The position numbers were made by a program, and so were the translations under genes. From assembly GCA_019693395.1 (NCBI GenBank), contig JAAMXP010000025.1:33003-64155 (forward strand): 31,153 nucleotides of DNA. Direction: 5' to 3'. The notes under the pieces are model-generated. The model was not told the DNA's origin, made no database searches, and was given only the letters and a program-made list of their open reading frames with translations. Of the stretch, positions 291-24,492 are shown piece by piece; within the stretch, counting starts at the first letter, position 1, and every line of letters starts with the position of its first letter. The stretch is from Ettlia oleoabundans (lineage: Eukaryota > Chlorophyta > Chlorophyceae > Chlamydomonadales).

Positions 291-1433
291 TCATTCTATT
301 GGACTCTTTTTGTCACTAGGATTCAAATTTTCTTGGACCATTTCTCCTCCATTTTCTAAATCATTAACTCGATCTATCAATCCATATTTTTTTGTCAAAT
401 CAAGTACAATTTCTTGTGTATGAAAAAAACGACATTTCGTTTCATAACAATGATGCAAACGCTCTGCATCATAATTGAGATCTACAGAATATAAAACAAT
501 TCCCAAAAACTTCTTTTGATTACAAAAGTAATAAAGACCTAAGAATGAACTCTTGATTTCAGAATCCATAATGTTTGAAAGATTCTTCATTTCAAGCTGC
601 AAATTATGTGCAATTTTTTTTAATAAGTCCATTTCTTTAAAAGTGGACGTATTATCAGTAGAAAGGGTAAAAAGGAGTTGTTCAACACTCTTTTTATTTT
701 CGACAAAAATTTCATTAAAATTTAAAGCCACTCGTTGATAACTATAATTCATGTGTGTTGCAATAAATGTGGGAAGAGTAATGGTTGAAGTTTTTCTTAT
801 TGAAGTCACAGAGGGTTTTAATTGAAAGATCAATTTAGTCCACTCAACAAAATTAAAGCTAAAATGAAAATCATTAACTAAAGGAGTGTTATGAAAAAGT
901 GGTAGTATGTTTTCGTAGCTTTCACCTTTTTGTCGGAGTAATTGTATTTTTTTTATGTTTAAATTGACGATCACACTATAACCAATATACGGTACTAAAA
1001 AAACATTTCTGAAAAAAACACAGAGACAATGGAAACAATAAAGCCAAACACTCTCTGGATTTTCCATATAGTAAAGAAAACTGGCGGAGGACAAAAAAAC
1101 ATAACAACCAAAAATGTAAGGCCAATCCCTTATCAAAAAAGCACCAAAAGAAATGTAATGTCGGTGATTTAACAAAAAATCACCGAACAGTAGAGTACAA
1201 AATTTTTGAAAGATTCCGGAGAATTTTCTAAAGAAATAATAGAGAAAAAGAACGCTAAAAATAAGAACAAGGAAAAAGAAAACATTTAATCTTATTTTTA
1301 AAAGAGATCTCCCAATGTTTATAATTGGAACAACTAGATTAAAAACTATAACAAAAGCAACGACTAGTTGGCCTTGTATATTTAAAACGCATTTTTCGTT
1401 GATTCTATTAAAAAAATGAAAAATTTTATTCAT
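291..1433 (-). CDS. orf380, unrecognised multi-spanning membrane protein
   Basis: This 380-residue ORF starts at an ATG and ends in TGA. The N-terminal 165 residues hold about four hydrophobic segments (roughly 20-42, 48-70, 105-125, 130-160). The C-terminal half is soluble and lysine/asparagine-rich. I do not recognise a family. It is the last gene of a same-strand cassette (orf101-orf361-orf402-orf205-orf129-orf380). A degraded relative lies on the other strand at 24108-24492; about 29 residues align there without a gap, including a shared ISFGA motif, and further on FLVPYIGYSVIV matches FLIAFLGYSFII. That second copy shows the ORF descends from a real gene. An inner-membrane location is inferred from hydrophobicity. 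Confidence 0.75.
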   Translation of the reverse strand: MNKIFHFFNRINEKCVLNIQGQLVVAFVIVFNLVVPIINIGRSLLKIRLNVFFFLVLIFSVLFLYYFFRKFSGIFQKFCTLLFGDFLLNHRHYISFGAFLIRDWPYIFGCYVFLSSASFLYYMENPESVWLYCFHCLCVFFRNVFLVPYIGYSVIVNLNIKKIQLLRQKGESYENILPLFHNTPLVNDFHFSFNFVEWTKLIFQLKPSVTSIRKTSTITLPTFIATHMNYSYQRVALNFNEIFVENKKSVEQLLFTLSTDNTSTFKEMDLLKKIAHNLQLEMKNLSNIMDSEIKSSFLGLYYFCNQKKFLGIVLYSVDLNYDAERLHHCYETKCRFFHTQEIVLDLTKKYGLIDRVNDLENGGEMVQENLNPSDKKSPIE

Positions 1434-1538
1434 AATAAAAAAGCTATTAAAAAAAGAATTTCAAAATATCAAAAAAAAAATGGTTATAAGACTGAAATTC
1501 AATAATAGAATTTATAGCTGACTGTCCATCTGGATTTT

Positions 1539-1928
1539 TTAAAGATTTTGAAATGAAACTTTGATTAGAAGGAACGCTACTTCCATGTGTCTCATCGCCG
1601 GAACAACTGTTGTTCTTTCAACGGTCCAAGTGCGTTCGGCGGGCAGATTACCAATGGCTGGTGGATTTTTATCTATGAGACCAGTGATTTCAGCGATGTC
1701 TACACTCTCTAGCTTGAACTCTTTTCTTTGCTCTCCCACAGATATCAATTTTTGTGCAGCAACGAGTTCTAAAAAGAGTGTTTGATACTCGTCTTTTGGT
1801 AACTCTGACAAAATTTTATCTTTTTGATTATCTAATAAATAAAAAGAAATTCGTGAAACATCTTTTTCTATTTCAACCATATTTTGAAAACACGTCTCTT
1901 GAAGATTAAATGAAAAAAGCCTAAACAT
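1539..1928 (-). CDS. orf129, unrecognised small protein
   Basis: The ATG at 1928 is preferred over upstream non-ATG starts. It overlaps the end of orf205 by 8 nt (the overlap reads ATGTTTAG and contains the orf205 TAG), an arrangement that suggests co-translation. Residues about 10-60 (EKDVSRI, then YQTLFLEL) are charged and probably helical. They resemble an ORF at 23515-23778 (EKDARRI, then YEKLFIKI) in the decayed second cassette. The C-terminal third (around the run NPPAIGNLPAERTWTVER) is noticeably richer in G+C than its surroundings and has no counterpart in the second copy. Function unknown. Confidence 0.6.
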   Translation of the reverse strand: MFRLFSFNLQETCFQNMVEIEKDVSRISFYLLDNQKDKILSELPKDEYQTLFLELVAAQKLISVGEQRKEFKLESVDIAEITGLIDKNPPAIGNLPAERTWTVERTTVVPAMRHMEVAFLLIKVSFQNL

Positions 1929-2538
1929 TGGTAGTGTTTTTTTTTTCTGCAACCATTGTTTGTTGTAATGACTTTGATGTCTCAGAAGCACATAGAATAA
2001 ATTTGTCAATTAACTGTGCTAAATCTAATTCTGACCCAGTCAATTTTTCATTTTCATGTTTCAACAACTTGAATTTATTCTTTACCGAGTCGTGAGTTTT
2101 ATTGAAAGCGTTATCCTGATTGAAGAAATGCCCTATGCATGCGAAACTAGCTAAGCTTCTTACTGGTAATCCAAACTGTATTTTAAAGTTGTGATTCTTT
2201 TCATGATTTGATTTCTTAAACCTCCTTAGAAAAGAACTCAAACAACTACGTGACTTTGTTTGTTGTTGATTTTCTTTTAGTTTTTGAAAAGCTGTAGTTG
2301 TGATTGTATTTGAATCATTACTGGCTTGCTCTAATAGATTAGAGAAAGCCGCTGTATGTCTTCTCCATTTGGTTCCATTTGGTTCCATTTGGTTCCATTT
2401 GGTTCCATTTGGTTCCATTTGGTTCCATTTTTTTTCAAAAAACTGGAAAGAAAAAAAACTGGAAAGAAAAAAAAATGGAAAGAAAAAAAAATGGAAAGAA
2501 AAAAAAATGGAAAGAAAAAAAAAATGGAGGGGTATCAT
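1921..2538 (-). CDS. orf205, unrecognised ORF with repeat-derived N-terminus
   Basis: The ORF opens with an ATG at 2538 but its first ~60 residues are translated repeat: the 16-bp A-rich array and the 10-bp GGTTCCATTT array. From about residue 60 (HTAAFSNLLEQ) onward it looks like ordinary coding sequence, a charged, probably helical protein ending in TAG at 1921. No ATG lies between the repeat and the likely genuine part. So either the repeat is translated or the original N-terminus was lost when the repeats arrived. A small hydrophobic ORF just upstream (2577-2690) may be the severed N-terminus. No family recognised. Confidence 0.45.
   Translation of the reverse strand: MIPLHFFFLSIFFSFHFFFFPFFFLSSFFSFQFFEKKWNQMEPNGTKWNQMEPNGTKWRRHTAAFSNLLEQASNDSNTITTTAFQKLKENQQQTKSRSCLSSFLRRFKKSNHEKNHNFKIQFGLPVRSLASFACIGHFFNQDNAFNKTHDSVKNKFKLLKHENEKLTGSELDLAQLIDKFILCASETSKSLQQTMVAEKKNTTNV
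2371..2430. repeat. Tandem 10-bp array (GGTTCCATTT x6)
   Basis: Six perfect copies of GGTTCCATTT follow a partial copy at 2363-2370. The decamer occurs singly in many palindromes of the window, so this is local amplification of a dispersed module. It lies inside the orf205 frame, where three units make 10 codons. Confidence 0.95.
2446..2530. repeat. Tandem ~16-bp array (TGGAAAGAAAAAAAAA)
   Basis: About five copies of TGGAAAGAAAAAAAAA, with A-tract length varying by one or two, directly follow the decamer array. With the upstream ATTTTTTTTC it forms the stem of a larger imperfect palindrome. Confidence 0.9.
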
Positions 2539-2576
2539 GTGCTTTTTTCAAAAGTCAATCAACCATTTTGTGTACT

Positions 2577-2690
2577 CTAGATGATAAACTCAAAGCTATT
2601 CAATAGAGGGAAAAACAAATAGAGGCATAAAAAAAAACTCCACACTAATTCTTTATGCAAAAAACGCGAAGAATCTAAATGATTAAGCAT
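2577..2690 (-). CDS. Small hydrophobic ORF (37 aa), possibly a severed N-terminus
   Basis: ATG at 2690 and TAG at 2577 enclose 37 codons, with a hydrophobic core (WSFFLCLYLFFPLL) that could be one membrane segment. It lies in the gap between orf402 and orf205. It could be a small gene, the original start of orf205 now out of frame, or chance. Support is limited to the start, stop and hydrophobicity. Confidence 0.25.
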   Translation of the reverse strand: MLNHLDSSRFLHKELVWSFFLCLYLFFPLLNSFEFII

Positions 2691-2758
2691 ATTTAAAAAT
2701 GAAATGAATCAAAAACTCTTTACTCTCAATCTGTGAATAAATGTTTTTTCTTAACGGG

Positions 2759-3967
2759 TTAAAAAAACAATAACAAAGATTCCATTGCTGAAGAAACTTT
2801 TGGAATGTCTTCAACAGAACATGTTTCAGGTGTTTGACTGGTTTCCCCTACGACAGAAGATGGATCTTTTGGCTGCTCGCTTGAAGAAATTTCGCGAGTG
2901 GCTTCCGGATCTTGATTTAAAAGAATTTGTGCCGTATCGAGGGCCAAATCACCTCGAGCTTGAGCTGTTCTATGCTTGAGCTCGCGAGCTTGTTGTAATC
3001 CATTTTCCTTTCTAAATGAATTGATTGCTTGAAGGAGATCGGGAGTATTTGCTAGACGCTCTCTTTGCTGATTTACTTGAGCTTTAAAATCAGCGGATTG
3101 TTGTAAAGCATCCTTACCTCTCTCTAAGAGTTTATTAAGTTTAGCGATTTCGGCAGCAGATGGAGTTTCAGAAGGTGCATTCTCCAATTTTTCTGAAGTT
3201 TCTTTAACTAGAGTACCGGCGACTTGAGCCAATTGGATTGCGTCTTCCTGAGCGCTTTGCAACTGAGCTTCAGTCTTTTGAGGAACCGTATCCGCTCTAG
3301 GTACAACAGCACCGGCGACAGCGGCAGCAAGACCTGTAGCAGCGGCAGCCACTTTGCTGGCATCAGATAGAACACCACCCCCCCCCTTCGGTGTAAAATT
3401 TACTAAATTTGAAGGTGTTCCATGGAAAAAATGCTTTTTCACTTGTTTATCTTGAATCCATAATGAAATTTTTCCATGATTACAAAAAAGATGAAGCAAG
3501 ATTAAACTAGAAACTACTAGGTTTCTCAAAAAAGAAAAGAAAAAGTCATAGATAAAAACATGACTTGAAAAAGCAAGAGGTACTCTCAACGCTAGTTGAG
3601 GGTTTGAAGGAAATGTTTGATAATAGTGGCTCAATACTAACCTTACAAAAAGAAAAACAAAAAAGAAAAAATGTAACAAGTAAGATTTTTCTAGTTTTAA
3701 ATTATATAGAAACAAAACCAACCTGTACGAGCATATTTTTTCGTAAATTTGAATCAAATAAGAAAAGCTAAAAGGAATACAGTAAAGAATGAAAAAACAC
3801 AAAAAAAAAAGAAATCCAAACAAAGAAATGAATTCTTTTATTGGAAAAACAAATCCCACTCCAAATTTGAAAAGAAAAACAACCCAGAGATTCAAAATCC
3901 CAGCTAAAGCAAATGAAAATGAGCAAATGAATTGATAAAAGGGTGATAATAATGGAAAAAGAGACAT
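2759..3967 (-). CDS. orf402, two-part membrane/coiled protein
   Basis: ATG at 3967; the stop lies in a poly-T stretch at 2759. Residues 1-195 are strongly hydrophobic, with several likely transmembrane helices, and AT-rich. A G9 tract (C9 at 3378-3386 on the plus strand) encodes a GGGG run. After it comes a very different half: an Ala/Gly-rich segment (SKVAAAATGLAAAVAGAVV), then a long charged Gln/Glu/Lys helical region and a Ser/Glu/Pro tail. This part uses many GC-rich codons, unlike the neighbours. A CTCAAC-type palindrome at about 3581-3601 is read in frame as PQLALRVP. No family recognised. The abrupt join suggests a fusion or a frameshift-controlled pair. Confidence 0.6.
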   Translation of the reverse strand: MSLFPLLSPFYQFICSFSFALAGILNLWVVFLFKFGVGFVFPIKEFISLFGFLFFLCFFILYCIPFSFSYLIQIYEKICSYRLVLFLYNLKLEKSYLLHFFFFVFLFVRLVLSHYYQTFPSNPQLALRVPLAFSSHVFIYDFFFSFLRNLVVSSLILLHLFCNHGKISLWIQDKQVKKHFFHGTPSNLVNFTPKGGGGVLSDASKVAAAATGLAAAVAGAVVPRADTVPQKTEAQLQSAQEDAIQLAQVAGTLVKETSEKLENAPSETPSAAEIAKLNKLLERGKDALQQSADFKAQVNQQRERLANTPDLLQAINSFRKENGLQQARELKHRTAQARGDLALDTAQILLNQDPEATREISSSEQPKDPSSVVGETSQTPETCSVEDIPKVSSAMESLLLFF

Positions 3968-4304
3968 ATTCTTTATTTTATAAATTTTTTTTTAGATTAA
4001 AATCTAAAAAAAAGAAACATCTAATTTATTACAAGATTTTTTATAAAAAAGCAACTAAATAACGTTCTTGCTGGTGCTCCTTTTGTTTCCATTTTTTTTT
4101 CTTTCCATTTTTTTTTCTTTCCATTTGTTTCCATTTGGTTTCCAAATCCAAACGTTCTCCAATTTTGTCCATTTTTTTTTATAAAAAAAATGGAAGGAGG
4201 TTGTTGTTCCATTTTTTATAAAAAATGGAAACAAATTTGGAAAAAAAAATCTAGACAAGGCTCACTGTTAATAAAGGAATTTTGAATAAATTTCGAGTTT
4301 AAAT
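3968..4304. repeat. Spacer with palindromic repeats
   Basis: No gene is supported. It contains a TTTAGATT/AATCTAAA stem near 3988-4013, a GCTGGTGCTCCTTTTG module near 4070, two TTCTTTCCATTTTTTT units, and a CCATTTTTTTTTATAAAAAAAATGG palindrome at about 4169-4194 identical in design to the one near position 80. Confidence 0.8.
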
Positions 4305-5390
4305 TTATTTTTTTTCAGTATTAGAAATTGTTCCGCCTAAACTGTCTACTTTTTCTAAAATCAACTTATAAATCTGTTTTCCGAGTACTTTCCAAGTTAA
4401 AGGAATGTTATAATCCGGGTACTTGATACCAGCTATCACACCAGTCGCACTACGTAAAAGAGACCCATGATCCCCAGGAGTTTTATGAAGCATCTCACGA
4501 TATTTCAGAAAAGTCCAAAAAAGGAAGGGCTGTATGTCGTATTCTTTATCACCAATAGAAACTTTGAATTGTGGTCTTTGAGCTCCCGAAATTCTTGTTA
4601 AAGTATCTATTTGACCCGGTAAATCTAAATTTTTTTCCTGTAAGTAATTAAAGGCTTTAAAGCTATTTAAAACTAAATCTTTAGGGGTGAGCGCTCGATG
4701 TATTTCCTGATTTTGAAAAATTTTTTTTTCAAACTCCTCAAAATAAGGATTGTAACTAATATTGGATAGAGTGTTGTTGGACGAGCCTGCCAAAGATGTT
4801 GGAGGATGATTTGGGGATTCAAAAACAAGAGGTAACGCGTCATGTTCTACATGCTCTACTGGAATACATTCGATACCGTCACTGCTTGATGTATGCCTGC
4901 CAACAGAAGAGTTGTATTCCACACTTAAACTCTTTATGCTAGGCTGAGAATCACCTAAACTGTTTACGCTTGGTTGGTAAGAACTAATATCACGATTTAT
5001 CAAATGTTGAATTTCTTGAAACAATTCTTTTACAACATCTGTTGCAACGGGTTGCATTAAGAAATGAACATCATTTGAAGTGGAAAGCCCCTCAATTTGA
5101 ACCTCTTGAATAGCTTGACAAAATTCATTGAAAGTATCTACAGTTAAATCATCATCCCAATTAAATAGTTGAAAAAATCTAAAATAACTTTCTAAATCTT
5201 GTTGTGTAAACACCGAGGCGGGGGCAATAGGCTCCAATAATACGTTTTCCGAATTTTCTAGTGCAATAATTTCGTCACCACAACACTTGGAAAATTTAAT
5301 GGAAGATAATACAGAAAGAAATAAGGGAATAAAACTTCGATATTTGTAAAAAAACATCGATACTTGATAAGTTAAAAAAGTAAACTTCAT
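4305..5390 (-). CDS. orf361, unrecognised ORF with N-terminal anchor
   Basis: The ATG at 5390 is chosen because it is the first ATG and lies 7 nt after the orf101 stop. The same ATTCATTATG junction is conserved in the second cassette at 21826. Residues 1-33 are hydrophobic (signal or membrane anchor). The rest is soluble and acidic in the middle, with a more structured C-terminal ~100 residues (FLFWTFLKYREMLHKTPGDHG and following). I recognise no domain. In the decayed copy the first ~19 codons still align, with an in-frame TTA to TGA change. Confidence 0.65.
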   Translation of the reverse strand: MKFTFLTYQVSMFFYKYRSFIPLFLSVLSSIKFSKCCGDEIIALENSENVLLEPIAPASVFTQQDLESYFRFFQLFNWDDDLTVDTFNEFCQAIQEVQIEGLSTSNDVHFLMQPVATDVVKELFQEIQHLINRDISSYQPSVNSLGDSQPSIKSLSVEYNSSVGRHTSSSDGIECIPVEHVEHDALPLVFESPNHPPTSLAGSSNNTLSNISYNPYFEEFEKKIFQNQEIHRALTPKDLVLNSFKAFNYLQEKNLDLPGQIDTLTRISGAQRPQFKVSIGDKEYDIQPFLFWTFLKYREMLHKTPGDHGSLLRSATGVIAGIKYPDYNIPLTWKVLGKQIYKLILEKVDSLGGTISNTEKK

Positions 5391-5397
5391 AATGAAT

Positions 5398-5703
5398 TTA
5401 TTTTTTTTTTTTCGAGAAATTCCTCCATACAAACTCCTCTAGAAAATCGAAAATGAGTTGTACAATACTAAAATACTCCAAAATAAAACAGCAGAAGAAA
5501 AATAAAAAACAATAAAACAAAAAAGTCAAAGGTTGTTCAAGAAATTTCTCGAATAGCCAACAAAGAACCAAAGGTGTGTTTATGATAAAATTTTTGAAAG
5601 ATCCATCAAAAACATACCACCATGTGAACCCTGTGATTAAATAGATCAAAATGAGATTATAAAGAAAATTCTTAAATTTTTTTTGAAAATTTTTTGTTGT
5701 CAT
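5398..5703 (-). CDS. orf101, small two-span membrane protein
   Basis: ATG at 5703, TAA at 5398. After a basic N-terminus there are two hydrophobic stretches (about 13-32 and 60-85) and aromatic-rich motifs (GFTWWYVFDGSFKNFI; FLEEFVWRNFSKKKK). It is the first gene of the cassette. A copy with about 80% nucleotide identity by eye lies at 21523-21843 on the plus strand, where WW, FDGSFKNFI, PL, WLFEKFLEQPL and EFVW are kept. Many differences are at third positions, which suggests past selection on the protein. Function unknown. Confidence 0.7.
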   Translation of the reverse strand: MTTKNFQKKFKNFLYNLILIYLITGFTWWYVFDGSFKNFIINTPLVLCWLFEKFLEQPLTFLFYCFLFFFCCFILEYFSIVQLIFDFLEEFVWRNFSKKKK

Positions 5704-6102
5704 AGATGAAATTTTTTTAATGGAGTAGAGTTGGTTTTCAATTTTTTAGAAAAAAATTGAAAAGAGTTCCCTGTTCTCCAATTTTGTCCATTTTTTTTAT
5801 AAAAAAAATGGAAGGAGGTAGTTGTTCCATTTTTTATAAAAAATGGAAACAAATTCAAAGAATTTGGAAAGAGCTCTTGCTGGTGCTCCATTCTATTCCA
5901 TTTTTTTTCAAAAAAATGGAAACAAAAGGAGCAAATGCAATCAAAAATAATAAAAAAGTAACAAAAAAAAAATGTAAAAAACAGCTTTTGTTTTTTTTTG
6001 TAAAAAAAAAAAACAAAAACAAATTTTGATGCTATCTATATGAAAAACAAGAAAATGTTGCCTTTTTTTTTAATTTAAAAAATCAACGTCTATAGAATTT
6101 TC
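5704..6102. repeat. Palindromic repeat spacer
   Basis: No gene is supported. The block holds CAATTTTTTAG/AAAAAAATTG at 5738-5760, CCATTTTTTTTATAAAAAAAATGG at 5788-5811, CCATTTTTTATAAAAAATGG at 5827-5846, a GCTGGTGCTCC module and a T/A palindrome at 5985-6020. The final ~70 bases are AT-rich and lead into the 3' end of rnl. Confidence 0.75.
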
Positions 6103-6529
6103 TAAAAGCTGAATCTTTTTAGTACGAGTATGCTGTCATATCACTATGAGTGGACATCTCGCCTATCACGTAGTAGTCTTCTACGATTTGGAAAACTTGT
6201 TTTGGGCCTGCTTTCCTGCTTGAGATGCTTTCAGCAGTTCTGCATTCCGAACGTAGCTACTCAGCGGTGCCCTTGGCAGGACAACTGATACACCAGAGGT
6301 TCGTCATTCTCGGTCCTCTCGTACAAGAGAATGCCACCCTCAATTTTCAACACCCGAAAAAGATAGGATCCGTACTGTCTCCGCGTATTCCATAGTGAAA
6401 TGGTCTTGTGTCGAAATCACCTTAGGAATCCTCCATCACTGGAGGTGATTCCCTTATTACTAAGGGGGCAGACTATACCATCATCTCGCTGGCAGTGCGA
6501 GAGTCGCCGTATTATACCTTCTTGGTGTC

Positions 6530-6765
6530 AAAAAAGTTTTCCCTCCATTAAAAATGGAGAGAACCTCCTTCCATTTTTTTTGTAAAAAAAAAATGGACAA
6601 AATTGGAGAACGTTGTCCCTCCATTTGAAAAATGGAGAGGACCTTGCTAAAGCAAGAACGTTGTACCTCCATTTTCGTCCATTTTTTTTATAAAAAAAAA
6701 TTACAGCAGAGAACCTCAAGCTATTGCTTGAGAGAACCTCCACTCGCGTTGAGAATACCTTTTTT
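6530..6765. repeat. Palindromic repeats inside intron L2593
   Basis: The block has two CTCCATTT(N)AAATGGAG palindromes (about 6541-6559 and 6619-6637), a CCATTTTTTTTGTAAAAAAAAAATGG stem, an AGCAAGAACG module and CTCAAGCTATTGCTTGAG (6715-6732). They sit between the P7 strands, outside the catalytic core, so the core is left intact. Confidence 0.85.
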
Positions 6766-6825
6766 GGCAATCGAGAAGCTATCTTGTCATTTCTAACAAA
6801 GTCGTTACGGGGTTATAAGAGACGA

Positions 6826-7455
6826 TCAAACTTTCATCAATTTTTTGGAAGCCATACTCGGTATCTGCCAAATTATCGGTGAAACACTCTTATAAAAAAG
6901 TTTATAATTGTCTCCAGTAATCGATAATCGTTTTTGAATAGATCCGGATTTACTCCTACCACTGAGAGATTCTCGAGTAGTAATTCCAAAAACAGTCTGT
7001 AAAATTTGTTGAATACTTGAAATTTCATTCTGAGTGTAATTATCAACAGTAAGAAAAACTCCTGTTCTCACACCCGAACTTCTACCACCATCATCGAGAA
7101 ACCAAACAGCTAAAGCTGTAGCGTCAATACATTCTGCAAAATTCTCTGGTAACTTTTTGACACCATTTTCATGATAAAAAAGTGATCTCCACTCATGAAA
7201 GAGGGCTCGTGTATAGAATCTATAACTTTGAGTTTGTTTGCCATTTCTTTTATCGAAACGTGTTACAAGAGAGGGAGATTTTCCTGTAGTGAAACTTTTT
7301 AAATTGTTAAAAAGCCAAAACAAGTAATCTTTATGTTTTACACTTTGTTCTAATTGAATAATCCCCTTTTTTGAATAGAGAGAAGCATCTCCAAGGAGAG
7401 CGCCATAAAGAATGGAGTGTTGAAACTTTTGATTTAAAGTAAATGTATCCAACAT
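6826..7455 (-). CDS. LAGLIDADG homing endonuclease in intron L2593
   Basis: The ATG at 7455 starts a 209-residue ORF; an upstream GTG at 7524 is possible but lies in the intron core. Two LAGLIDADG helices are visible (YGALLGDASL near residue 16 and LAVWFLDDGG near residue 112), each with an acidic catalytic residue. This is the two-motif, monomeric architecture of the LAGLIDADG_2 class. The protein should cut the intron-less rnl allele at this site and may assist splicing. Note that the classical I-CreI at this site is a one-motif dimer, so the ORF type differs from I-CreI. Confidence 0.85.
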   Translation of the reverse strand: MLDTFTLNQKFQHSILYGALLGDASLYSKKGIIQLEQSVKHKDYLFWLFNNLKSFTTGKSPSLVTRFDKRNGKQTQSYRFYTRALFHEWRSLFYHENGVKKLPENFAECIDATALAVWFLDDGGRSSGVRTGVFLTVDNYTQNEISSIQQILQTVFGITTRESLSGRSKSGSIQKRLSITGDNYKLFYKSVSPIIWQIPSMASKKLMKV

Positions 7456-7675
7456 ATTGGTTTCTTTTTTCTTAAACTTCCCACGGTATTGCCCTTTATT
7501 TGTACGATAGGTAAAGGGTTTCACCGTTATGAGGCGATTTTTACTTAGAGTTTACACTCCAAGGTCGCAATTTTTGTGCGTTTACGACGTACTAAACCCA
7601 ACTCACGTACCGCTTTCATCGGCGAACAGCCGAACCCTTCGAACCTTCTTCAGCTCGAGGATGCGATGAGTCGAC

Positions 7676-8142
7676 CAGTATTGTTACCATTTAGGCTGTT
7701 TATCCTAAATCTCTACTCTTCACAGAGTAGCTCAGACTATGTCATTAACTTGAATTTTTCCTTTTTTGTCCTTTTCTGACAAATCTTTCAAGGAGCAACG
7801 CGCTTGAAGAGTTTTCAAGGAGCAACGCGCTTGAAGAGTTTTCAAGGAGCAACGCGCTTGAAGAGTTTTCAAGGAGCAACGCGCTTGAAGAGTTTTCAAG
7901 GAGCAACGCGCTTGAAGAGTTTTCAAGGGCTAGAAATCATTGTTTGATCTCTAGGTTCAAGTTAGTGGGCGCTCGTGGAGAAATTATTGGAAGGAAAATC
8001 CTCATTCTCTAGTCGTTGAACGTTCATTGTTACTTTTTTTTTTCCATTCACAATGCTTCGCTGCAAATTGTCTTTTTGTTGGGTAGAGACAAAAAGAGTT
8101 CCTTGCAATTCACCCACTTTAGCCTCGACTATGGCTTTTGTA
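7676..8142 (-). ncRNA. Group I intron L2504 of rnl, ORF-less
   Basis: This 467-nt intron follows the 4-nt exon CGAT and ends in G before GTCGACTCATC (E. coli G2505). P1 is formed by CCUCGAU of the joined exons with the internal guide GUCGAGG (minus strand of 8123-8129). The core strands GGGTGAATTGCAAGG (about 8099-8113) and GACAATTTGCAGC (8062-8074) precede the P7 strands GTTCAACGACTAG (about 8010-8023) and GACATAGTCTGAG (7731-7743). P8 is filled by a 27-bp tandem array. There is no endonuclease ORF. Confidence 0.85.
7786..7929. repeat. Tandem 27-bp array in P8 of intron L2504
   Basis: Five copies of a 27-bp unit plus a partial one. The core of each unit is CAAGGAGCAACGCGCTTGAA; TTCAAG and CTTGAA are inverted repeats, so each unit can fold as a small hairpin. 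The copies are essentially identical, implying recent expansion or gene conversion. Confidence 0.95.
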
Positions 8143-8146
8143 ATCG
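8143..8146 (-). rRNA. rnl: 4-nt rnl exon 5 (CGAU, E. coli 2501-2504)
   Basis: The upstream exon ends GGCACCU (U2500) and the downstream exon begins GUCGACUC (G2505). The universal peptidyl-transferase sequence CCUCGAUGUC therefore needs CGAU between them. The only fitting place has CGAT preceded by an intron-terminal G (8147) and followed by a recognisable intron start with a 7-bp P1. The flanking exons then match E. coli lengths exactly. Confidence 0.8.
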
Positions 8147-8246
8147 CATAGTGTTAATTGAGAGATTTCTTTTTTACGCTTTCTCCTTCCTACGGAACTT
8201 TTTTGTAAAAAAAAAGTTCCGTAGGAAGGGACAAATCAATAATTTG

Positions 8247-8861
8247 TCAGCTGATCCATTCTGTAGGAATTTTATGCATCATTGAAGGATGAATAAAAGG
8301 AATCAAAAGTTTCCCAAAAGTGATTGCATTGTTTTCACGACCACTTATGTAAATTCTAAGTGTCTCACGTTGAAAAAAGGTTCCAGTTTTTACTCCATAA
8401 AGAGTTGTTAACACACTTGCAAGTCTTTTCACGTCTTGATGTGTAAAACAATCAGTACAGAATCTCACTCCTCCATTTTTCAAATGGAGAGTACCCGAGG
8501 AATATCCTTTCCATTTTTGACTCCCATCATCCATAAACCAATAAGCAATAGCCTGTGGTGTTAACCATCGATGAATCAGCCGAGGAACCTTTTTCACGTT
8601 GGTATCCGTGTAAAATTGATGTTTATAAAACCGGAACTCTGGAAAACATCGTGTATCACATTCCCAAACACCAGTTTGTGCATTTTGTCGAGGTCTCATT
8701 GTGATATAGTCTTGAAAAACATCACACAAATGATCAAAATACTCTTTGTTTTTTTGTCGAATTGATAACCGAGCTGTAGTTTTATTCCTGTTCCAACTTA
8801 AACAACCATCACCTAATAAAATTCCTATTAAAATTTCTTTTTGCTGGTTCTTGAGTTTCAT
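8247..8861 (-). CDS. LAGLIDADG homing endonuclease in intron L2500
   Basis: The ATG at 8861 gives 204 residues; a TTG at 8876 is less likely. The two motifs are LIGILLGDGCL (about residues 10-20) and AIAYWFMDDGS (about 109-119), the double-motif type. Compared with the sister ORF in L2262 it has about eight extra residues (GTLHLKNG) after the second motif. These are the translation of a CTCCATTTTTCAAATGGAGAG palindrome at 8470-8496, so a dispersed repeat entered the gene in frame without breaking it. Whether the enzyme still cuts is unknown. Confidence 0.85.
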   Translation of the reverse strand: MKLKNQQKEILIGILLGDGCLSWNRNKTTARLSIRQKNKEYFDHLCDVFQDYITMRPRQNAQTGVWECDTRCFPEFRFYKHQFYTDTNVKKVPRLIHRWLTPQAIAYWFMDDGSQKWKGYSSGTLHLKNGGVRFCTDCFTHQDVKRLASVLTTLYGVKTGTFFQRETLRIYISGRENNAITFGKLLIPFIHPSMMHKIPTEWIS

Positions 8862-8929
8862 AAAAAAAATTCTCAACGTTCCTTAAATTTTCGGAGTCTC
8901 TTTATTGACAAATCAGTTCTTTGTCTTCC

Positions 8930-9185
8930 TCCATTTGTTTCCATTTTTTTTTTCTTTCCATTTGGTTCCATTTTTTTGAAAAAAAAATGGAAAGAAAAAA
9001 AATTACACCAAATGGAACCAAATGGAACCAAATGGAGGATAGGTACTCTCTATTGAAGAGAAATCTACTCTCTATTCACAATAGAGGTCGTCTCCATTTT
9101 CGTCCATTTTTTTTTATAAAAAAATGGAAGGAGGTTGTCTCCATTTTCGTCCATTTTTTTTTATAAAAAAATGGAAGGAGGGGAA
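8930..9185. repeat. Palindromic repeats in intron L2500 (P9 side)
   Basis: It contains a palindrome built from TTTGGTTCCATTTTTTTG and its complement (about 8958-9030), then two nearly identical ~54-bp direct copies of TCTCCATTTTCGTCCATT with AAAAAATGGAAGGAGG (about 9091-9181). The latter module also occurs as a direct pair at 27783-27889. Confidence 0.85.
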
Positions 9186-9415
9186 AAGAGATAACCAAAG
9201 CTCTTAGATGTTTAAGGAATCCTTCTAATCGCTTAGAAGATCAGACTATATCATCTATCAAAAATGAAATCAATAATTTGTCATTTGATAGTGAAGCGTG
9301 TAGTCGTTGAGGGGTTCTCTCCTGTTTTCTTTGTTTTTTTTTTAACAATCCGGATTTTTAAGAAAACAATGAGAACTTCCCTGCTGATTGTCCGCACTAG
9401 ATCATTTTTTCTGCC

Positions 9416-10165: not shown

Positions 10166-10179
10166 TCACGCCCTTATTA

Positions 10180-11695: not shown

Positions 11696-11736
<41 letters not shown>

Positions 11737-13928: not shown

Positions 13929-13960
<32 letters not shown>

Positions 13961-13976
13961 GTCGTGTTACCACTTA

Positions 13977-14009
<33 letters not shown>

Positions 14010-14415: not shown

Positions 14416-15427
14416 ATTTGGAACGAGCCGTCACTAAATGAAACATCAATGAATGGTACACATTGTACCCATTAAGACGGAGCATTCGCTTCTCTCTTAG
14501 GGGCCGATTCACTCTACACCGAGAAACGGTCTGTAGAAAACCTAGGACTTTCGGCTATCATGATTTTCACATGATTTCTCGTTACTCATGTCAGCATTCT
14601 CACTTCTGATTTCTCGATTCCATTTAACAATGAAACTTCAACGATTTACAGAACGTTCTGCTACCTTTTCAGTGTGTTGCTTTTTTTTCCATTAAAGGCA
14701 AAAGCAACAAACCGAAAATCGCCGCTTCGGTGAATTTCTTGAGCTCCGATACATTTTTGGCGCTACTAGACAGTCCAAAAAGCTTTTTTGGAAAGACCAG
14801 TGAGCTATTACGCTTTCTTCAAAGGATGGCTGCTTCCAAGCCTACCTCCTGGTTGTCTAGGCCTAGTAACTCCCTTTACCACTCAGAAATTGCTTTGGAA
14901 CCTTAGCGTTCGATCTGGGCTGTTTCCCTTTTGACTAGAGACCTTAGCGCCTCTAGTCTGTCTGTATAAGGATTAAAAAGGCATTCGGAGTTTCCGTGGG
15001 ATCAGTAAGGCTTTGGGCCACCATCACCCAATGAGTGCTCTACCTCCTTTTCAACCAATGTCTATACGCTCTACCTCAATAGATTTCGCAGAAAACCAGC
15101 TATTTCCAAGCTCGATTGGCTTTTCACCCCATAATCACAAGTCGTCCCCATCTATTGCCACAGATGTGGGTTGGGTCCTCCAAAACGTGTTATCATTTTT
15201 TCAACCTGCTCATGATTAGATCGCTTGGTTTCGGGTCAAATTGCACAAACTGATTTGTTGATTTAAAACTTGCTTTAACTCCGCCTCCACTTAAGAGTTT
15301 AGGCTTGCTTGATAAATTTACTCGCTGACCCATTATGCAAAAGGTACGCCGTTACTTTTTTAAAAAGCGTCGACTGCTTGTAAGCATTCAGTTTCAGGAT
15401 CTATTTCACTCCCTATTTAGGAATCTG

Positions 15428-15462
<35 letters not shown>

Positions 15463-15873
15463 ATCAGAAGATTTTACTTAGGCTTAGAGGGTGGTCCCCC
15501 TTTTACAAATTCAAACAAAGGAGGTCTTCGTTTTACTCATGTTTTAATCCTTTTGACAAAAAAAATGTTCACCATCTACATAGGTTTACAGGGCTATCAC
15601 CTTCTTTGGCGCGTCGTTCCAAACAGCTTCAATATGTAAGATTTAAAAAGAATTAAGGCCTAATCCGTGTTCGCTCACCACTACTAACGGAGTCTCGGTT
15701 GATTTTTTTTCCTCTAGTTACTTAGATGTTTCAGTTCACTAGGTCAAATTTGATCTTGAAGTTTCCTTTAGGGAAATCCATAGTTCTTAGGATTTACGCA
15801 CCTAACATATGGCGTTTCGTTGCGTCTAACGTCCCTGATTTTCTTCTGTCTAGGCATCCACTAAATGCTTTTT

Positions 15874-16272
15874 TTTCTTTTTACCTTTTATTTTTGGGAG
15901 AATTTGTTACAAATCACTCCTTTTTTTTCCAAATTTTCTAAAGAAAATTTGGAAAAAAGAAAACAATTCAATTTTTTATAAAAATTTGTTGTTGCTCTTT
16001 ATTCCATTTTTTCTTTCCATTTTAAAAAAAAAAAAATGAAAAGAAAAGAAAATGGAAAGAAAAAAATGGAACAACAATCTTCTATTGTCGTAAAAGGGTT
16101 ACGTGATTTGATTCCAAATTCAATGAATTAGGAGTTACTCTATATAAAAGACACGTATCACGTATTTTGTATTTTGTCGTTCCAAATTTTCTTTCAAATT
16201 GAGTTTTGAGTTTGATTTGAAAACTCAAATTCTTCTAGAAGCAATAAATTTTTTTGGATTGTAAAGGTTGGT
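15874..16272. repeat. Spacer between rnl and trnM with palindromes
   Basis: No gene is supported. A CCAAATTTTCTAAAGAAAATTTGG palindrome (15929-15952) is followed by a long imperfect inverted repeat around a TTTTAAAAAAAAAAAAATGAAAA centre (15985-16072, arms GTTGTTGCTC..TTCCATTTTTTC and complement). A further AAATTGAG/TTTGAGTTT stretch lies near 16195-16230. Confidence 0.7.
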
Positions 16273-17540: not shown

Positions 17541-17969
17541 AGCAAGGAAACAAAAAGATGGAATCATACCATATAGAAGAACAAGAAAATGAGTCAAAAA
17601 AAGAGTTTTTTTACTTTATGGAAAAGTCTAAACGTTTGATTTCTTTTTTCCATATAAGGACAATTCCTAGATTTTACAAATTGAACAATTTTTTAATGGA
17701 TTTGATTTTTGTACAAATGATTTGCTTTCCTTTACAAGAGCTTGTTCCAAATTGAGAACAGGAATCAAGTGGAACAACCAATTTTTTTAGAAATTGTTAT
17801 TCCATTTGGTAGAATTTGGTATAATTTTTTTGTTTCCATTTTTTTTTCAAAAAAAGGGAGTTCCATTTTGTTCCAGTTTTTTTTCTTTCCATTTTTTTGA
17901 AAAAAAAAAATGGAACCAACTGGAAAGAAAAAAAAATGGAAACAAAAAAATTTCTAAATTTTTGCAAAT
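17541..17969. repeat. Spacer between atp9 and trnE
   Basis: A 17559-17755 open stretch (MESYHIEEQENESKKEFFYF and following) has no recognisable counterpart and shares its frame with upstream repeats. It could be a decayed ORF but I do not call it. From 17795 to 17945 lies a nested palindrome with TTTCTTTCCATTTTTTTG and complementary arms. Confidence 0.6.
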
Positions 17970-18042
17970 TATCCCTTACGGGACTCGAACCCGTGTTTCT
18001 GCCTTGAAAAAGCAATGTCCTAGGCCTCTAGACGAAAGGGAC
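17970..18042 (-). tRNA. trnE: tRNA-Glu (UUC)
   Basis: The minus strand gives acceptor GUCCCUU/AAGGGAU, a Glu-like D arm (GUCUAGAGGCCUAGGAC), anticodon loop UUUUCAA (anticodon UUC) and a T arm CGGGUUCGAGUCCCG. The discriminator base is A. Confidence 0.93.
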
Positions 18043-18575
18043 ATTTTTTAGTGGTTTTTTAATTCTTTTTTTTGCATATCATATAGAGAGACAAGAAAAA
18101 GATCTTTAAAAAAACCAGTCTTTTCTGTAAAAAAAATTTAGAAATCAAAGAATGGAAGCGCTTATGCTTCTCCATAAGACTTGATTTATGTAGATACGTA
18201 AGGATAATCAAGTTGTTCTGTTTAACAGTTTGTACTTATAAAACTTTTTTTAACCACTAGTTGTTGGTTGCTCTTTTTTTCTTTCCTCCTTCCATTTTTT
18301 TTTCTTTCCTCCTTCCATTTTTTTTTCTTTCCATTTTTTTGAAAAAAAAAAATGGAACCAAATGGAAAAAAATGGAAACAAAAGGAGCAATGCAAGGAAA
18401 AAAGAGCAACAACTTGTTTCCTTAATTCAAAGCCAACACGTGGTTTTCTTTTGTTTTATAGAATACAATAATGAATAAATGGTTTTTTCTCTAAAAAAAG
18501 AGGAATAAATTGATTATCAACATCCCAAAAATCTTTTAAGAATTGTAAATATATATTTTTTAATTATTAATTTTT
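18043..18575. promoter_or_regulatory. Divergent spacer between trnE and the ribosomal protein cluster
   Basis: Transcription diverges here (trnE leftward, rpl5 rightward), so promoters are expected, but I cannot identify a consensus. Contents: a CTTATG-CTTCTC-CATAAG hairpin (18161-18178), AT-rich sequence, and a block of palindromic repeats (18285-18390) with two direct copies of TTTCCTCCTTCCATTTTTTT. Confidence 0.4.
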
Positions 18576-21039: not shown

Positions 21040-21408
21040 ATGTCAAAATTTTTAAAAAAATCTAATGAAAAGGGTATTATTCATATCCAAAGTACACAGA
21101 ACAATACTATTTGTACATTAACAGATAGAGAAGGCAATACAAAATTTTGGTCATCAGCAGGAAATCTAGGCTTTAAGAATTCTAGAAAGTCTACGAGTTA
21201 TGCTGCACAAGCAGTAGCAGAAGTGGTTGCAAGCAAAGCATTCAATTTAGGATTAAATTCAATAACTCTAAAAATTAAAGGTTTAGGATACGGAAAACTT
21301 CCAGCAATTAGAGCTCTTTATAAATCCAAATTGAACATAACAAAAATTGTTGAATCTACACCTATAGCTCATAATGGATGTCGTAAAAAGAAAAAACGAC
21401 GTGTATAA
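21040..21408 (+). CDS. rps11: Ribosomal protein S11
   Basis: ATG at 21040, TAA end, 122 residues. The family pattern is complete: GIIHIQSTQNNTICTLTD, the GFKNSRKSTSYAAQ segment, IKGLGYGKLPAIRAL and the basic end STPIAHNGCRKKKKRRV. It is a small-subunit platform protein. The 156-nt gap to rps13 holds only short AT-rich sequence with TTCCATTTGGTTCCAGTTGG. Confidence 0.97.
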   Translation: MSKFLKKSNEKGIIHIQSTQNNTICTLTDREGNTKFWSSAGNLGFKNSRKSTSYAAQAVAEVVASKAFNLGLNSITLKIKGLGYGKLPAIRALYKSKLNITKIVESTPIAHNGCRKKKKRRV

Positions 21409-21414
21409 TTTTGT

Positions 21415-21522
21415 GGAATTTTTCTTTCCATTTTTTTTCTCTCCGTTTTCTTCCATTTTTTAAAAAAAAAAAATGGAAACAAATGGAACAACAACATTTT
21501 CTCCATTAAAATCATTTCATTT
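21415..21522. repeat. Palindrome downstream of rps11
   Basis: TTTCTTTCCATTTTTTTT and CTTCCATTTTTTAAAAAAAAAAAATGGAAAC form one stem-loop (21420-21490). It is followed by a segment (CTCCATTAAAATCATTTCAT) that aligns with the upstream flank of orf101 at 5707-5726 (minus strand) and so marks the start of the duplicated cassette. Confidence 0.75.
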
Positions 21523-21843
21523 ACGAAAACATAAAATTTTCAAAAAAAATTAAAGAATTTTCTTTTTAATCTCATTTTGATCTACTCCATCACAGGATTT
21601 TTATGGTGGTCTCTTTTTGATGGATCTTTCAAAAATTTTATTGTACATACACCATTGTTTCTTTCTTGGCTTTTCGAAAAATTTTTAGAGCAACCATTGG
21701 TAATTAGTTTTGTAGTTTTATTCTGCTTTTTTATCTTCGGGTATTTCAGTTTTGTATATCAAGTTTTACACCTTTTAGATGAGTTTGTCTGGAGCAATTT
21801 TTCAAAAAAAAAAAAGAAATTCATTATGTACTTGATTTTTTGA
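21523..21843 (+). pseudogene. orf101 copy, start lost and stop gained
   Basis: The sequence aligns almost without gaps to orf101 (5398-5703, minus strand), including the upstream flank. The ATG has become ACG (21523). The fourth codon AAA has become TAA (21532). The original TAA stop has become GAA, so the frame runs on to a TGA at 21843. The internal protein sequence is still well conserved (GFLWWSLFDGSFKNFI, WLFEKFLEQPL, EFVWSNFSKKKK). A shorter product from a TTG at 21577 is possible in principle. I read it as a recent pseudogene. Confidence 0.8.
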
Positions 21844-21900
21844 ACTTGTCAAATATTGATGTTTTTTTATAATTATCCAAGTAGAACATGATGCGTTCCC
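21826..21900 (+). pseudogene. orf361 copy, 5' remnant
   Basis: ATG TAC TTG ATT TTT TGA ACT TGT aligns codon by codon with the orf361 start (ATG AAG TTT ACT TTT TTA ACT TAT). About 19 codons match, with an in-frame TTA to TGA change at codon 6. Similarity ends near 21890 before a repeat block, so the rest of orf361 is missing or unrecognisable. Confidence 0.7.
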
Positions 21901-21919
21901 TCCTCTTTTTCAACATCCT

Positions 21920-22125
21920 AATCAACCTCCTTCCATTTTTTTTATAAAAAAATGGACAGAATTGGAGAACGTTTGGATTTGGAAACCAAATTGAGTTCCA
22001 TTTGGTTCCAGTTTTTTTTGTTTCCATTTGGTTCCAGTTTTTTTTCTTTCCAGTTTTTTGAAAAAAAAACTGGAACCAAATGGAAAGAAAAAAAAATTAC
22101 ACTAAATGGAGAGGAGAAATTTTCT
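21920..22125. repeat. Palindromic repeats replacing the body of the orf361 copy
   Basis: CCTTCCATTTTTTTTATAAAAAAATGG (21930-21956), then TTTGGTTCCAGTTTTTTTTG, TTTCTTTCCAGTTTTTTG and the complementary AAAAAAACTGGAACCAAATGG form nested stems. Nothing coding is seen. Confidence 0.85.
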
Positions 22126-23100
22126 AAAGTTTTGATGACAAAAACCTTTAAAACGTACTTGTTTCCCATAAAAAGTGAAAAAGTCCTGAAATGTTATGTA
22201 TTATTTATAACTTTCCTTTAATTATTCATAGTTTGATTCTCTTTCAATTGATTTGAAAGGGAATAATAGAGAATCTCTTTCTCTTCTCTAAATTCTCACT
22301 TGATATCGTTTATTGTATTTTCTTGGATTCGTTTAATTTGCTTTTATTCTCTTTTCTTCTAAATGAAATCTCTCTGTTTGATGGATTGTTTCATTCTTTC
22401 AATCTTCCACTGAATCTTTGAGACTTGAAATCTCTCTTTTTCTCTCTTTAATTGATTGTTTGTTTGAGACTTGAAATTTCTGTTTTTCTTCTGATTGTGA
22501 ATGTTTCTCATTTTTTTTCTGTTATTCTTTGTTAAATCTTTCTTTTCATTCTCTCTCTGTGTTTCTGATTCTGAGTTTCTTAGATTTAAAATCATTCTCT
22601 CTCTTTGAATCTCATTTTTTGATTTGGATTCCAATCTTGTAAATTTGATGCTTTGAATCTGATTCTCTAAATTGGATTTTTTGAATCTCTCATTGTACGT
22701 TTGTTTTTTATTTGAGTGTTTCTCGTTGTGAATCTCTTTCTTTTCCTCCATTTATACGATGGAGAAAACCTTCATTTATACGATGGAGAAAACCTCCATT
22801 TATACGATGGAGAAAACCTCCATTTATACAATAGAGAAGACTTCCGGTTTCGTCCATTTTTTTTCTATAAAAAAAATAGAAGTCCTGTTTTAGATTCTGC
22901 TTGAGTTTCTGTAAATCTCTTCTTGTTTTGAAATCTCTTTTTGTTTGTTTCCTTGTTGAAACTCTTTGTCTTTGCTTGTGTTTTTGAGATTTCAATGGTT
23001 TCTCATTTCTTTTTCACCTGTTTTTCGACCAAAAAGTCTATTTATTTTCCTTTTCTTTGTTTTTCCTTTTTCAACAAGAAATTTTTAATTATATATTTTT
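22126..23100. repeat. Low-complexity T/C-rich tract, no gene supported
   Basis: From about 22240 to 22740 the plus strand is built from drifting TTGAATCTCT, GAGACTTGAAATCTCTC and TTTCTCTCTTTAATTGATTG units. For example, GAGACTTGAAAT is repeated at 22419-22430 and 22466-22477. Similar sequence continues at 22890-23000. The open frame on the minus strand is Lys/Glu/Asn-rich because of this composition and is not called. In the first cassette this position would correspond to orf402/orf205, but no similarity is visible. Confidence 0.7.
22745..22840. repeat. Tandem 24-bp palindromic array
   Basis: Four copies of CCTCCATTTATACGATGGAG followed by AAAA, with a few substitutions in copies 2 and 4. 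Each unit is a hairpin (CTCCAT/ATGGAG). It belongs to the CTCCATTT family seen elsewhere. Confidence 0.95.
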
Positions 23101-23514
23101 AAATTTTTTGATCATTGTTGGATTCAATCCATTTTTCCATCTAAAGAGTCCTTGCATTCTAAAAGTCAAGCATTAAAAATGATCATAAATTGATGTAAAA
23201 CATTCCATGTCATAGGTCCTCTCAACGCGAGTTGAGGTGTTAAACTCAAAGTAGAGGTGTAACCGTAAGTGATGAAATTAGAATTGTTAGATAAGAAAAG
23301 AGTCCTAAATCTCTAATTTTTCAATTTGCACCGTAATCGTAAAGTAAACAGGTCAAGCTGTATGTAATGACAAAAAGATCTAGTAACAGTAGTTTTCGAG
23401 ATTATAGAGAACTAAACAAGAGTTTGTAGAACAAAAACTCTAAAGCAAAGTCTTTGTAGTGATGCATTAAACAAAAACAGGATTTTCTTAAAAGAGACCA
23501 TCCCACAATTACCA
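23101..23514. other. AT-rich spacer without identifiable gene
   Basis: I see no reading frame, tRNA or rRNA signature. It includes one CTCAACGCGAGTTGAG palindrome (23220-23235). By position it could contain an eroded orf205 copy, but I cannot align it. Confidence 0.5.
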
Positions 23515-23778
23515 GTGCTTTCCAAACAACTCGATAACAAGAGTTTGATTCAAATGGAAGCCTTAGAAAAAGACGCTCGCCGAATCTGGTACCATTTACA
23601 AAAGAATCGAATTGATCTTTTAGAAAAAGAGATACCTTTGCTCTGTGACCATTATGAAAAACTTTTTATTAAAATCAGACCTAGCAAAACATTCTCTCAA
23701 ATCAGCCACCAGTTGAAAACATCAAGTGTAAAAACAAAGAATGTCGAACACAAGTCAAATTGCTCAACAATGGCTTGA
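23515..23778 (+). pseudogene. Probable orf129 copy, remnant
   Basis: The frame opens at GTG 23515 (ATG at 23554) and ends at 23778. Residues MEALEKDARRIWYHLQKN and YEKLFIKI resemble orf129 (MVEIEKDVSRISFYLLDN; YQTLFLEL) at the same relative position in the cassette. The C-terminal part has no counterpart. Similarity is limited to about 40 residues, so homology rests on sequence plus conserved order. It may be a shortened but functional gene. Confidence 0.5.
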
Positions 23779-23902
23779 TGTTGATAGTTTTTTTCAATGG
23801 CTTTGTAAAATTTGAACGTTTTCATTTTTACACCTTTTTAAATTCTGTCTTATCTACTCGATTTTTTAAATCAACAATGGAATTCATTTATTCTTAAAAG
23901 GA

Positions 23903-24040
23903 GGTCCTCTCAAGAAAGAGCTTGAGGTCCTCTCAAGAAAGAGCTTGAGGTCCTCTCAAGAAAGAGCTTGAGGTCCTCTCAAGAAAGAGCTTGAGGTCCT
24001 CTCAAGAAAGAGCTTGAGGTCCTCTCAAGAAAGAGCTTGA
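23903..24040. repeat. Tandem 23-bp array x6
   Basis: Six identical copies of a unit starting GGTCCTCTCAAGAAAGAGCT and ending TGA. CTCAAG and CTTGAG at the unit borders make each copy a hairpin. Perfect identity implies recent amplification. Confidence 0.97.
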
Positions 24041-24107
24041 GGAGTGAATTTCTTGTTTTTTGGTTTACAGCGTTTTTTTTACATCAGTAAATGTCTCCAG
24101 AGCGATT

Positions 24108-24492
24108 TTTGATGTACGTTTTAATTCTTCTCTTTTTCTTTTTACTGTTTTGTTTTTTTTCTCTTTTTTTTAAGTTTTCCACAAATTTATTATGCTTTAG
24201 TGAAAATTCTTTTTAATGCCTTGATTCTTGGTGAAAAACATATAATTTCTTTTGGTGCTAGAATAATAAACAAGTATCCCTCAACTCTTGTTGGAGTTGA
24301 GAGGACTTACATTTTTGGTTTTTATGTTTCCTTATCTATTAGTAGTTTGAATCTTATAAGAAACGATTGTGAGACTTTTTGGATCTATTTAGTCTATGTT
24401 TTGTGTGTGTGTGTTTTCGAAATTTTTTCCTAATAGCTTTTTTAGGGTATTCTTTTATAATACACGTTAATGAGAATTACTTGCATTTGTGT
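24108..24492 (+). pseudogene. orf380 copy, frameshifted and interrupted by a repeat
   Basis: From about 24108 the translation follows orf380 residues ~48-170: LVKILFNALILGEKHIISFG aligns with CTLLFGDFLLNHRHYISFG, then YIFGFYVSL with YIFGCYVFL. Between them a CCCTCAACTCTTGTTGGAGT palindrome (24277-24307) adds about ten codons. After FEIFS a stop and frameshift occur, and FLIAFLGYSFIIHVN continues in another frame (orf380: FLVPYIGYSVIVNLN). The gene is clearly broken. Confidence 0.8.

Follow-up and report, generated by a model that had tools for sequence, protein, structure and literature searches.

How did a row of six genes outside the standard mitochondrial set come to lie in the mitochondrial DNA of the green alga Ettlia oleoabundans, and why does a broken copy of the row lie on the opposite strand? 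The window, by which we mean the whole stretch of 31,153 nucleotides analysed, is the right end (positions 33003-64155 of 64,155 bases) of contig JAAMXP010000025.1 (C14 below) of assembly GCA_019693395.1. Within it, six orphan open reading frames (ORFs) in the order orf101-361-402-205-129-380 make up cassette A on the minus strand (291-5747), and their inverted relative, cassette B, lies on the plus strand (21478-24627). On balance, we favour the explanation that the cassette represents the integrated remains of a plasmid-type mitochondrial mobile element.

The cassette and its inverted copy

Cassette A begins about 400 bp downstream of the large ribosomal RNA (rRNA) match, which ends at 6117 on the same strand. 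The cassette is still largely open, with one broken small ORF of its own, between orf402 and orf205. Its parts are as follows.

5398..5703, minus strand: orf101, a small hydrophobic protein; the copy in B has 68% amino acid identity, with an NG86 dN/dS of 0.26
4305..5390, minus strand: orf361, without a hydrophobic stretch at a Kyte-Doolittle value (KD19) of at least 1.6
2759..3967, minus strand: orf402, several N-terminal hydrophobic stretches and a hydrophilic tail; paralogues on contigs C780 and C31
2551..2760, minus strand: spacer between orf402 and orf205 with the broken small ORF; 76.5% nucleotide identity to C780 11293-11526
1921..2538, minus strand: orf205, its N-terminus largely a translated dispersed repeat
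1539..1928, minus strand: orf129, without a hydrophobic stretch
291..1433, minus strand: orf380, N-terminal hydrophobic stretches and a hydrophilic C-terminal part; relatives at 24.1-24.6 kb, at 29.3 kb and on C780

Cassette B starts 70 bp past rps11 (21040-21408) and retains four parts of this row.

21478..21882, plus strand: 5' part of B with flank, orf101' and the start of orf361; start codon of orf101' lost, in-frame TAA
21878..21930, plus strand: orf361' fragment, residues about 179-200, following the loss of about 160 codons
23515..23745, plus strand: orf129' remnant, matched at the protein level
24119..24627, plus strand: orf380' remnant containing stop codons and a frameshift; a 27-bp hairpin is inserted in frame at about 24281-24307

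At the nucleotide level, BLASTN aligns 5334-5747 with 21478-21882 on opposite strands (415 columns, 79.5% identity, E 9e-101). The alignment runs from the upstream flank through the whole of orf101 and across the junction into orf361, of which it includes the first 19 codons. Its median match depth is 1, and it therefore lies outside the repeats; nucleotide matches were kept at a median depth of at most 3 and within 1-6300 and 21400-29800. The next block pairs 4801-4853 with 21878-21930 at 79% identity, a position which implies that B has lost about 480 bp, or 160 codons, of orf361.

At the protein level, the cassette proteins were searched with phmmer --max against 1467 six-frame segments of C14, with orf205 rows starting before residue 60 set aside as repeats. 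In B, orf101 is matched on the plus strand at E 1e-37, orf361 residues 179-200 at 0.001, orf129' at 1.8e-4 (23416-23775) and orf380' at 3e-7 (24125-24430) and 1.4e-4 (24373-24519). All of these matches are on the plus strand and in cassette order. With one reversed query per protein as a control, the best E was 0.2 for orf101, 0.43 for orf361, 0.91 for orf129 and 0.016 for orf380, which places the orf101, orf129 and orf380 matches above chance; block shuffling was not used because shuffled proteins can still match their source ORF. Given its reversed control, the orf361 match is carried mainly by the nucleotide alignment and its position. Against the whole assembly (32.9 Mb in 1230 contigs), E rises to 0.126 for orf129' and 0.012 for orf380', so the evidence for these two leans much on position. 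This and the other assembly searches cover unmasked sequence, the masked part, about 26 kb, being C14 1-1311 and 17082-33002, C31 1-6475 and C780 1-2510. Remnants of orf402 and orf205 were not found by phmmer inside B (21.5-24.6 kb; orf205 rows from residue 60 on).

Cassette B is thus a decayed, inverted, colinear copy of A: orf101' has ACG in place of the start ATG and TAA as its fourth codon, and orf380' has been broken as listed above. A sequence-only reading of the locus had proposed exactly this, namely that the orf101 copies align as nucleotides with their flank and the orf361 junction, that an orf361 start, an orf129-like ORF and an orf380 copy follow in order on the plus strand, and that this copy is decaying. 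All three points are borne out, and the similarity does extend past orf101. The same reading overstated the membrane character of the set in calling most of the ORFs hydrophobic: stretches with a Kyte-Doolittle value of at least 1.6 occur in three of the six (orf101, orf402 and orf380), and none was seen in orf361, orf129 or the C-terminal part of orf205.

The two orf101 copies share 94 alignable codons, with 17, 9 and 28 differences at the first, second and third positions. The ratio of nonsynonymous to synonymous substitution rates (dN/dS) is 0.26 by NG86 (0.14-0.51 in 500 bootstraps, 2.6% of them at 0.5 or above) and 0.34 by LWL85. A copy dead since the duplication should push the ratio to at least 0.5, and the lower NG86 value suggests that both copies probably worked for a while. 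On these substitution patterns, orf101 encodes a real protein, and its B copy was probably functional for part of its history, although the YN00 estimate leaves some doubt.

Further copies and the surrounding mitochondrial DNA

The sequence-only reading had counted the cassette twice. It is now known from six loci on three contigs: A, B, a set of fragments at 25.8-29.4 kb of the window, two loci on C780 and one on C31. The fragments in the window are the following.

25848..26124, plus strand: N-terminal fragment of orf402', partly tandem-repeated; E 2.6e-5, reversed control 0.23
29285..29422, plus strand: orf380'' fragment, residues about 174-219; E 3.7e-8; also present on contig C368

Since the second fragment overlaps a part of orf380 that B already has at 24.6 kb, it probably represents a separate copy. 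On C780, positions 4490-5641 hold an intact ORF of 383 amino acids (orf383), a paralogue of orf402 (31% identity, 108 of 348 columns, E 6e-31) that sits alone between trnI and cox2. The minus strand of the same contig (11526-10832) carries a spacer like 2551-2760 followed by an orf380-like ORF (E 5.9e-5). The C31 locus (7959-6807) is an orf402-like gene interrupted by a frameshift; it sits 3' of a trnE copy with a degraded 3' end. The copies follow host genes of the same strand: the large rRNA gene rnl (A), rps11 (B), and trnI and a probable rpl10 (the C780 pair). Queried with orf361, orf101, orf344, orf380, orf402 and orf129 (orf205 was not searched), the unmasked assembly gave no more matches except one on C388 at E 0.038; that contig is GC-rich, shares no match with the window and was rejected as a relative.

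Several side observations belong to these loci. By eye, orf402 has an extra, repeat-derived stretch that is absent from its two paralogues. The trnE-region copy on C31 (8040-8592) is 82-84% identical to window 17838-18279; its 3' tRNA part is degraded and followed by hairpin repeats beside the orf402-like gene, and ARAGORN finds no tRNA there. Four orphan ORFs of 227, 172, 122 and 122 amino acids, the first two hydrophobic, lie at C31 14371-15791 and 18496-19859, with no detectable relation to the cassette. Near the end of C368 (20990-21468), two stretches of 171 bp (99.4% identity) and 163 bp (96.9%) repeat sequence from 28.7-29.5 kb of the window in rearranged form. C368 is probably nuclear because it is GC-rich, and the two stretches either moved to the nucleus recently or are an artefact of chimeric assembly.

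C14 is mitochondrial. Its left part carries cob, nad3, atp6, rps2, rps14 and others, named by reading their translations; rpl5, rps3, rps10 and the large rRNA on this contig were named by Pfam or Rfam, and rpl6, rps13 and rps11 in the window by reading. A search of a plasmid collection with rpl5 showed merely that it is a ribosomal protein gene. C31 encodes cox1, nad1 and atp1, and C780 encodes cox2, cox3, nad7, atp8 and the probable rpl10 (Pfam E 0.01, below the cut-off), again as read from translations. The probable rpl10, together with the overall gene content, points to a green alga. At E 1e-8, C31 has 346 and C780 218 matches with the window, mostly repeats, as against none for C388 and two for C368. 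Because of their standard genes and these many matches, C31 and C780 are part of the same mitochondrial genome as C14. In the window, the large rRNA gene (6117-15884) is interrupted by group I introns, two of them at the gathering score, and the ORFs in these introns resemble LAGLIDADG endonucleases by eye.

Repeats are dense: 17% of the window is covered by at least 5 matches, orf205 and orf443 match dozens of places, and many ORFs of the window are translated repeats. Rows for orf205 and orf443 were set aside as repeat-derived in the comparison that covered C780 and C31. The spacer at C780 11293-11526 has a hairpin of about 23 nucleotides, and the homologous window spacer at 2551-2760 is without it. 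This pair is a filled and an empty site of a mobile hairpin and shows that short hairpins move in this genome. Repetitive palindromes are also known in the mitochondrion of the trebouxiophycean Lobosphaera (PMC4524435). Near-perfect tandem arrays of hairpin-like units of 21-27 bp lie at 7786-7928, 23901-24042, 25000-25098 and 28325-28456, with sequences that differ between the sites. A common AGGAC tail behind the hairpins was considered and dropped: a hairpin precedes 5 of 40 AGGAC sites, compared with 99 of 921 sites of permuted pentamers, which is no excess.

Two minus-strand features lie between the cassette fragments of the 25.8-29.4 kb region.

28637..28933, minus strand: C-terminal 98 amino acids of a tyrosine recombinase, with an HxxR, H and Y motif recognised by eye and no N-terminal part
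26660..27694, minus strand: orf344, an orphan ORF next to that remnant; repeats interrupt its N-terminal extension

The recombinase remnant scores with PF00589 (6.8e-7, above the cut-off), phrog_1 (2.9e-10) and XerC (5.7e-6, below its cut-off). It covers positions 121-168 of the 172 of PF00589 and is without the box I arginine and the N-terminal domain. Among the 12 records listed in each case, the lowest E was 0.02 for plasmids (36 matched) and 0.006 for phages (120 matched), and a second copy of the remnant was found solely as a C368 piece. That the recombinase belongs to the element is a guess. In PHROGs, orf344 best matches two families without an assigned function, one at E 0.0065 over 22 residues and the other at 0.031; its comparison with a Rep_3-type replication initiator was made by eye and found no support in Pfam, NCBIfam, plasmids or phages.

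Origin of the cassette

The cassette proteins have no recognisable family. Nothing better than E 0.029 was found in Pfam (six ORFs), 0.093 in PHROGs, or 0.099 in NCBIfam (five ORFs, without orf205), and in the Protein Data Bank (PDB) the orf402 family reached at best E 0.32 and orf361 E 1.8. Among 5.8 billion proteins, in a search that reaches just those relatives sharing short exact words with the query, none scored at E of at most 10 for orf361 (1852 candidates), for orf418, which is orf380 plus a tail read through one TGA (2711 candidates), or for the orf402 family (among 7994 scored). No match to orf361, orf344 or the orf402 family was found in viral contigs. Structure models from single sequences had a mean predicted local distance difference test (pLDDT) score of 33.8 for orf361 and 35.5 for orf344, too poor for a fold search. 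A homology of the orf402 and orf380 N-termini, suggested by an RN motif seen by eye, was unsupported by hhalign (probability 0.9, E 0.062). No title on this cassette was found in a limited survey of the open-access literature, which says little.

Codon usage also sets the cassette apart. By a synonymous codon score, five of the six cassette A genes (orf205 by its C-terminal part alone) fall below all 19 standard genes and orf380 below 18 of them (Mann-Whitney p 2e-4), and the GC content at third codon positions is higher than in the 19 standard genes (p 8e-4).

That the cassette occurs at multiple loci agrees with a module that is mobile or derived from a plasmid, and is also compatible with native duplication. 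If a plasmid-type element was involved, it would have carried an operon-like row of orphan genes, with orf101, orf402 and orf380 for membrane proteins and orf361, orf205 and orf129 for others, and it would have entered, or spread within, the mitochondrial DNA more than once. The element may have inserted at intergenic sites, through recombination between repeats or with the help of a tyrosine recombinase, one whose truncated gene lies among the fragments, and then have decayed, a course also reported for Ulva (PMC9389341) and Leucomyxa (PMC11528492). Because the copies lie downstream of host genes of the same strand, read-through transcription from the host could express them. The copies other than A would then have been eroded by deletions, frameshifts and incoming short hairpins, with the intact orf383 as the exception. 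The extrachromosomal origin and the functions of the proteins are what we infer. The sequence-only reading had likewise proposed an integrated plasmid or other mobile module: a non-standard module that is multi-copy, decayed and present at several loci is what we find, and an integrated plasmid is the favoured candidate for its source.

A number of observations weigh against this explanation. First, PF03175 (DNA polymerase B) had no match at E of at most 1 in the assembly outside the masked stretches, a profile that among 14 control genomes matched just E. coli, below the cut-off. PF00940 (phage-type RNA polymerase) matched C366 alone, in two short split stretches taken as the host enzyme; it matched none of the 14 control genomes, masked stretches are unseen by it and divergent enzymes can escape it. 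Second, neither a free copy nor terminal repeats nor a target-site duplication was seen, the downstream flank of A falling in a masked stretch of C14, and no separate contig with the cassette was met in the assembly searches. Third, the recombinase remnant lies between two cassette fragments but is truncated, on the opposite strand and away from A. Fourth, the lone intact orf383 resembles a retained gene more than debris. Fifth, the divergence from A is much greater in orf129' and orf380' than in orf101', so B may be a mosaic and not the product of a single event, and the YN00 dN/dS of about 0.51 makes weak evidence that B was once functional. Finally, at least one off-frame outscores the true frame for orf101, orf129 and the C-terminal part of orf205 (three of the six), so the codon score speaks for usage unlike that of the standard genes and not for the coding status of each ORF, and the codon differences could come from low expression and not from a foreign origin.

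Some of these points are shared with the strongest rival, a native, fast-evolving mitochondrial gene family copied via recombination at hairpin repeats, the extra copies being ordinary pseudogenes. Such an origin is possible, if less probable than the plasmid-type element. It explains the intact orf383 between trnI and cox2 better and needs no unseen plasmid, and the dense repeats, the moving hairpins, the failure to find a plasmid polymerase and the purifying selection on orf101 all agree with it. It sits poorly with three queries having no homologue among 5.8 billion proteins, with six scattered loci holding different subsets of the genes, and with the deviating codon usage.

A further idea, which we regard as quite speculative, is an undescribed class of element, polymerase-less, that would spread by means of its membrane proteins, in which several hydrophobic stretches are combined with long hydrophilic tails, for example through mitochondrial fusion or contact, and integrate beside host genes for transcripts. 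The mF plasmid of Physarum reportedly promotes mitochondrial fusion.

A defective integrated phage-like virus of mitochondria is improbable. The recombinase remnant does score with integrase families, and orf402 has a PHROG match to a DNA-ejection pilot protein. However, the latter match (E 0.12), like that of orf402 to the Pfam SNAP family (E 0.17), is at chance level and was rejected, no capsid, terminase or replication family appears among the PHROG and Pfam matches of the cassette ORFs, and the scans of viral contigs were empty.

The possibility that the ORFs are diverged standard genes (nad, atp, tatC or ribosomal proteins) is more improbable still and close to refuted. Several ORFs are membrane-like and the standard set is incomplete in the unmasked sequence read, but profiles of the nad, cox, atp, ribosomal-protein and tatC families match none of the ORFs (Pfam six, NCBIfam five), while rpl5, rps3 and rps10 score in Pfam as positive controls (3e-15, 2e-17 and 3e-14), and orf402 and orf380 occur at several loci. 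The placement of the ORFs outside the usual mitochondrial set by the sequence-only reading therefore stands. The profile searches gave no support to a standard-gene identity; they also found no family, and the orf361 model was uninformative.

Lastly, a chance match of B as AT-rich, Phe-rich or repeat-derived sequence, conceivable given the many translated repeats and the modest evidence for orf129' taken alone (E 0.126), is refuted for orf101 and orf361 by the 415-bp alignment outside repeats, the reversed controls and the agreeing order and strand, and can hardly hold for the rest.

If the cassette is plasmid-like, it is a probable green-algal case in which the visible cargo consists entirely of orphan proteins, nearly as in the plasmid pLPM discussed below, and its six loci of differing divergence form a series for dating the invasions of a single mitochondrial genome. 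A native cassette would instead be a mitochondrial gene family without a relative in the databases searched. In either case, the pair of an intact and a decayed cassette, together with the filled and empty hairpin sites, makes turnover measurable in related strains.

Comparison with known systems

Tyrosine recombinase genes (int) are described in green algal organelles, namely the Oedogonium plastid and the mitochondria of Chaetosphaeridium and Prototheca (PMC2442088). The recombinase remnant is like them in being a tyrosine recombinase in green-algal organelle DNA; it differs in that the C-terminal 98 amino acids alone are present, unjoined to the cassette, and the likeness is one of description. 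Linear plasmids with dpo and rpo, as reported with Marophrys, are likewise selfish elements that integrate into mitochondrial DNA (PMC6425028). They differ from the cassette, for which dpo and rpo were not found and the ends are not visible.

The circular plasmids pUme, pUmu1 and pUmu2 of Ulva are closer in their host, also a green alga, and in having plasmid-derived ORFs at several intergenic sites (PMC9389341). Their integrated copies are sometimes on the other strand and show varying decay, as here. Both U. mutabilis plasmids carry tRNA-like pseudogenes (PMC9389341). The Ulva plasmids differ in carrying an RNA polymerase gene, of which none was seen in our unmasked mitochondrial contigs.

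The circular mitochondrial plasmid pLPM of Leucomyxa plasmidifera, also found as an insert in the cob intron, exists on its own at high copy number and encodes a divergent RNA polymerase of phage type, recognised solely by a more sensitive method (PMC11528492). In these respects it differs from the cassette, and the comparison is by description and not by protein comparison. As described, however, pLPM resembles the cassette in its rows of orphan ORFs, nearly all read in one direction, in showing no sign of a DNA polymerase, in having paralogues in both plasmid and mitochondrial genome, and in its many ORFs whose N-terminus is transmembrane and whose tail is variable (PMC11528492).

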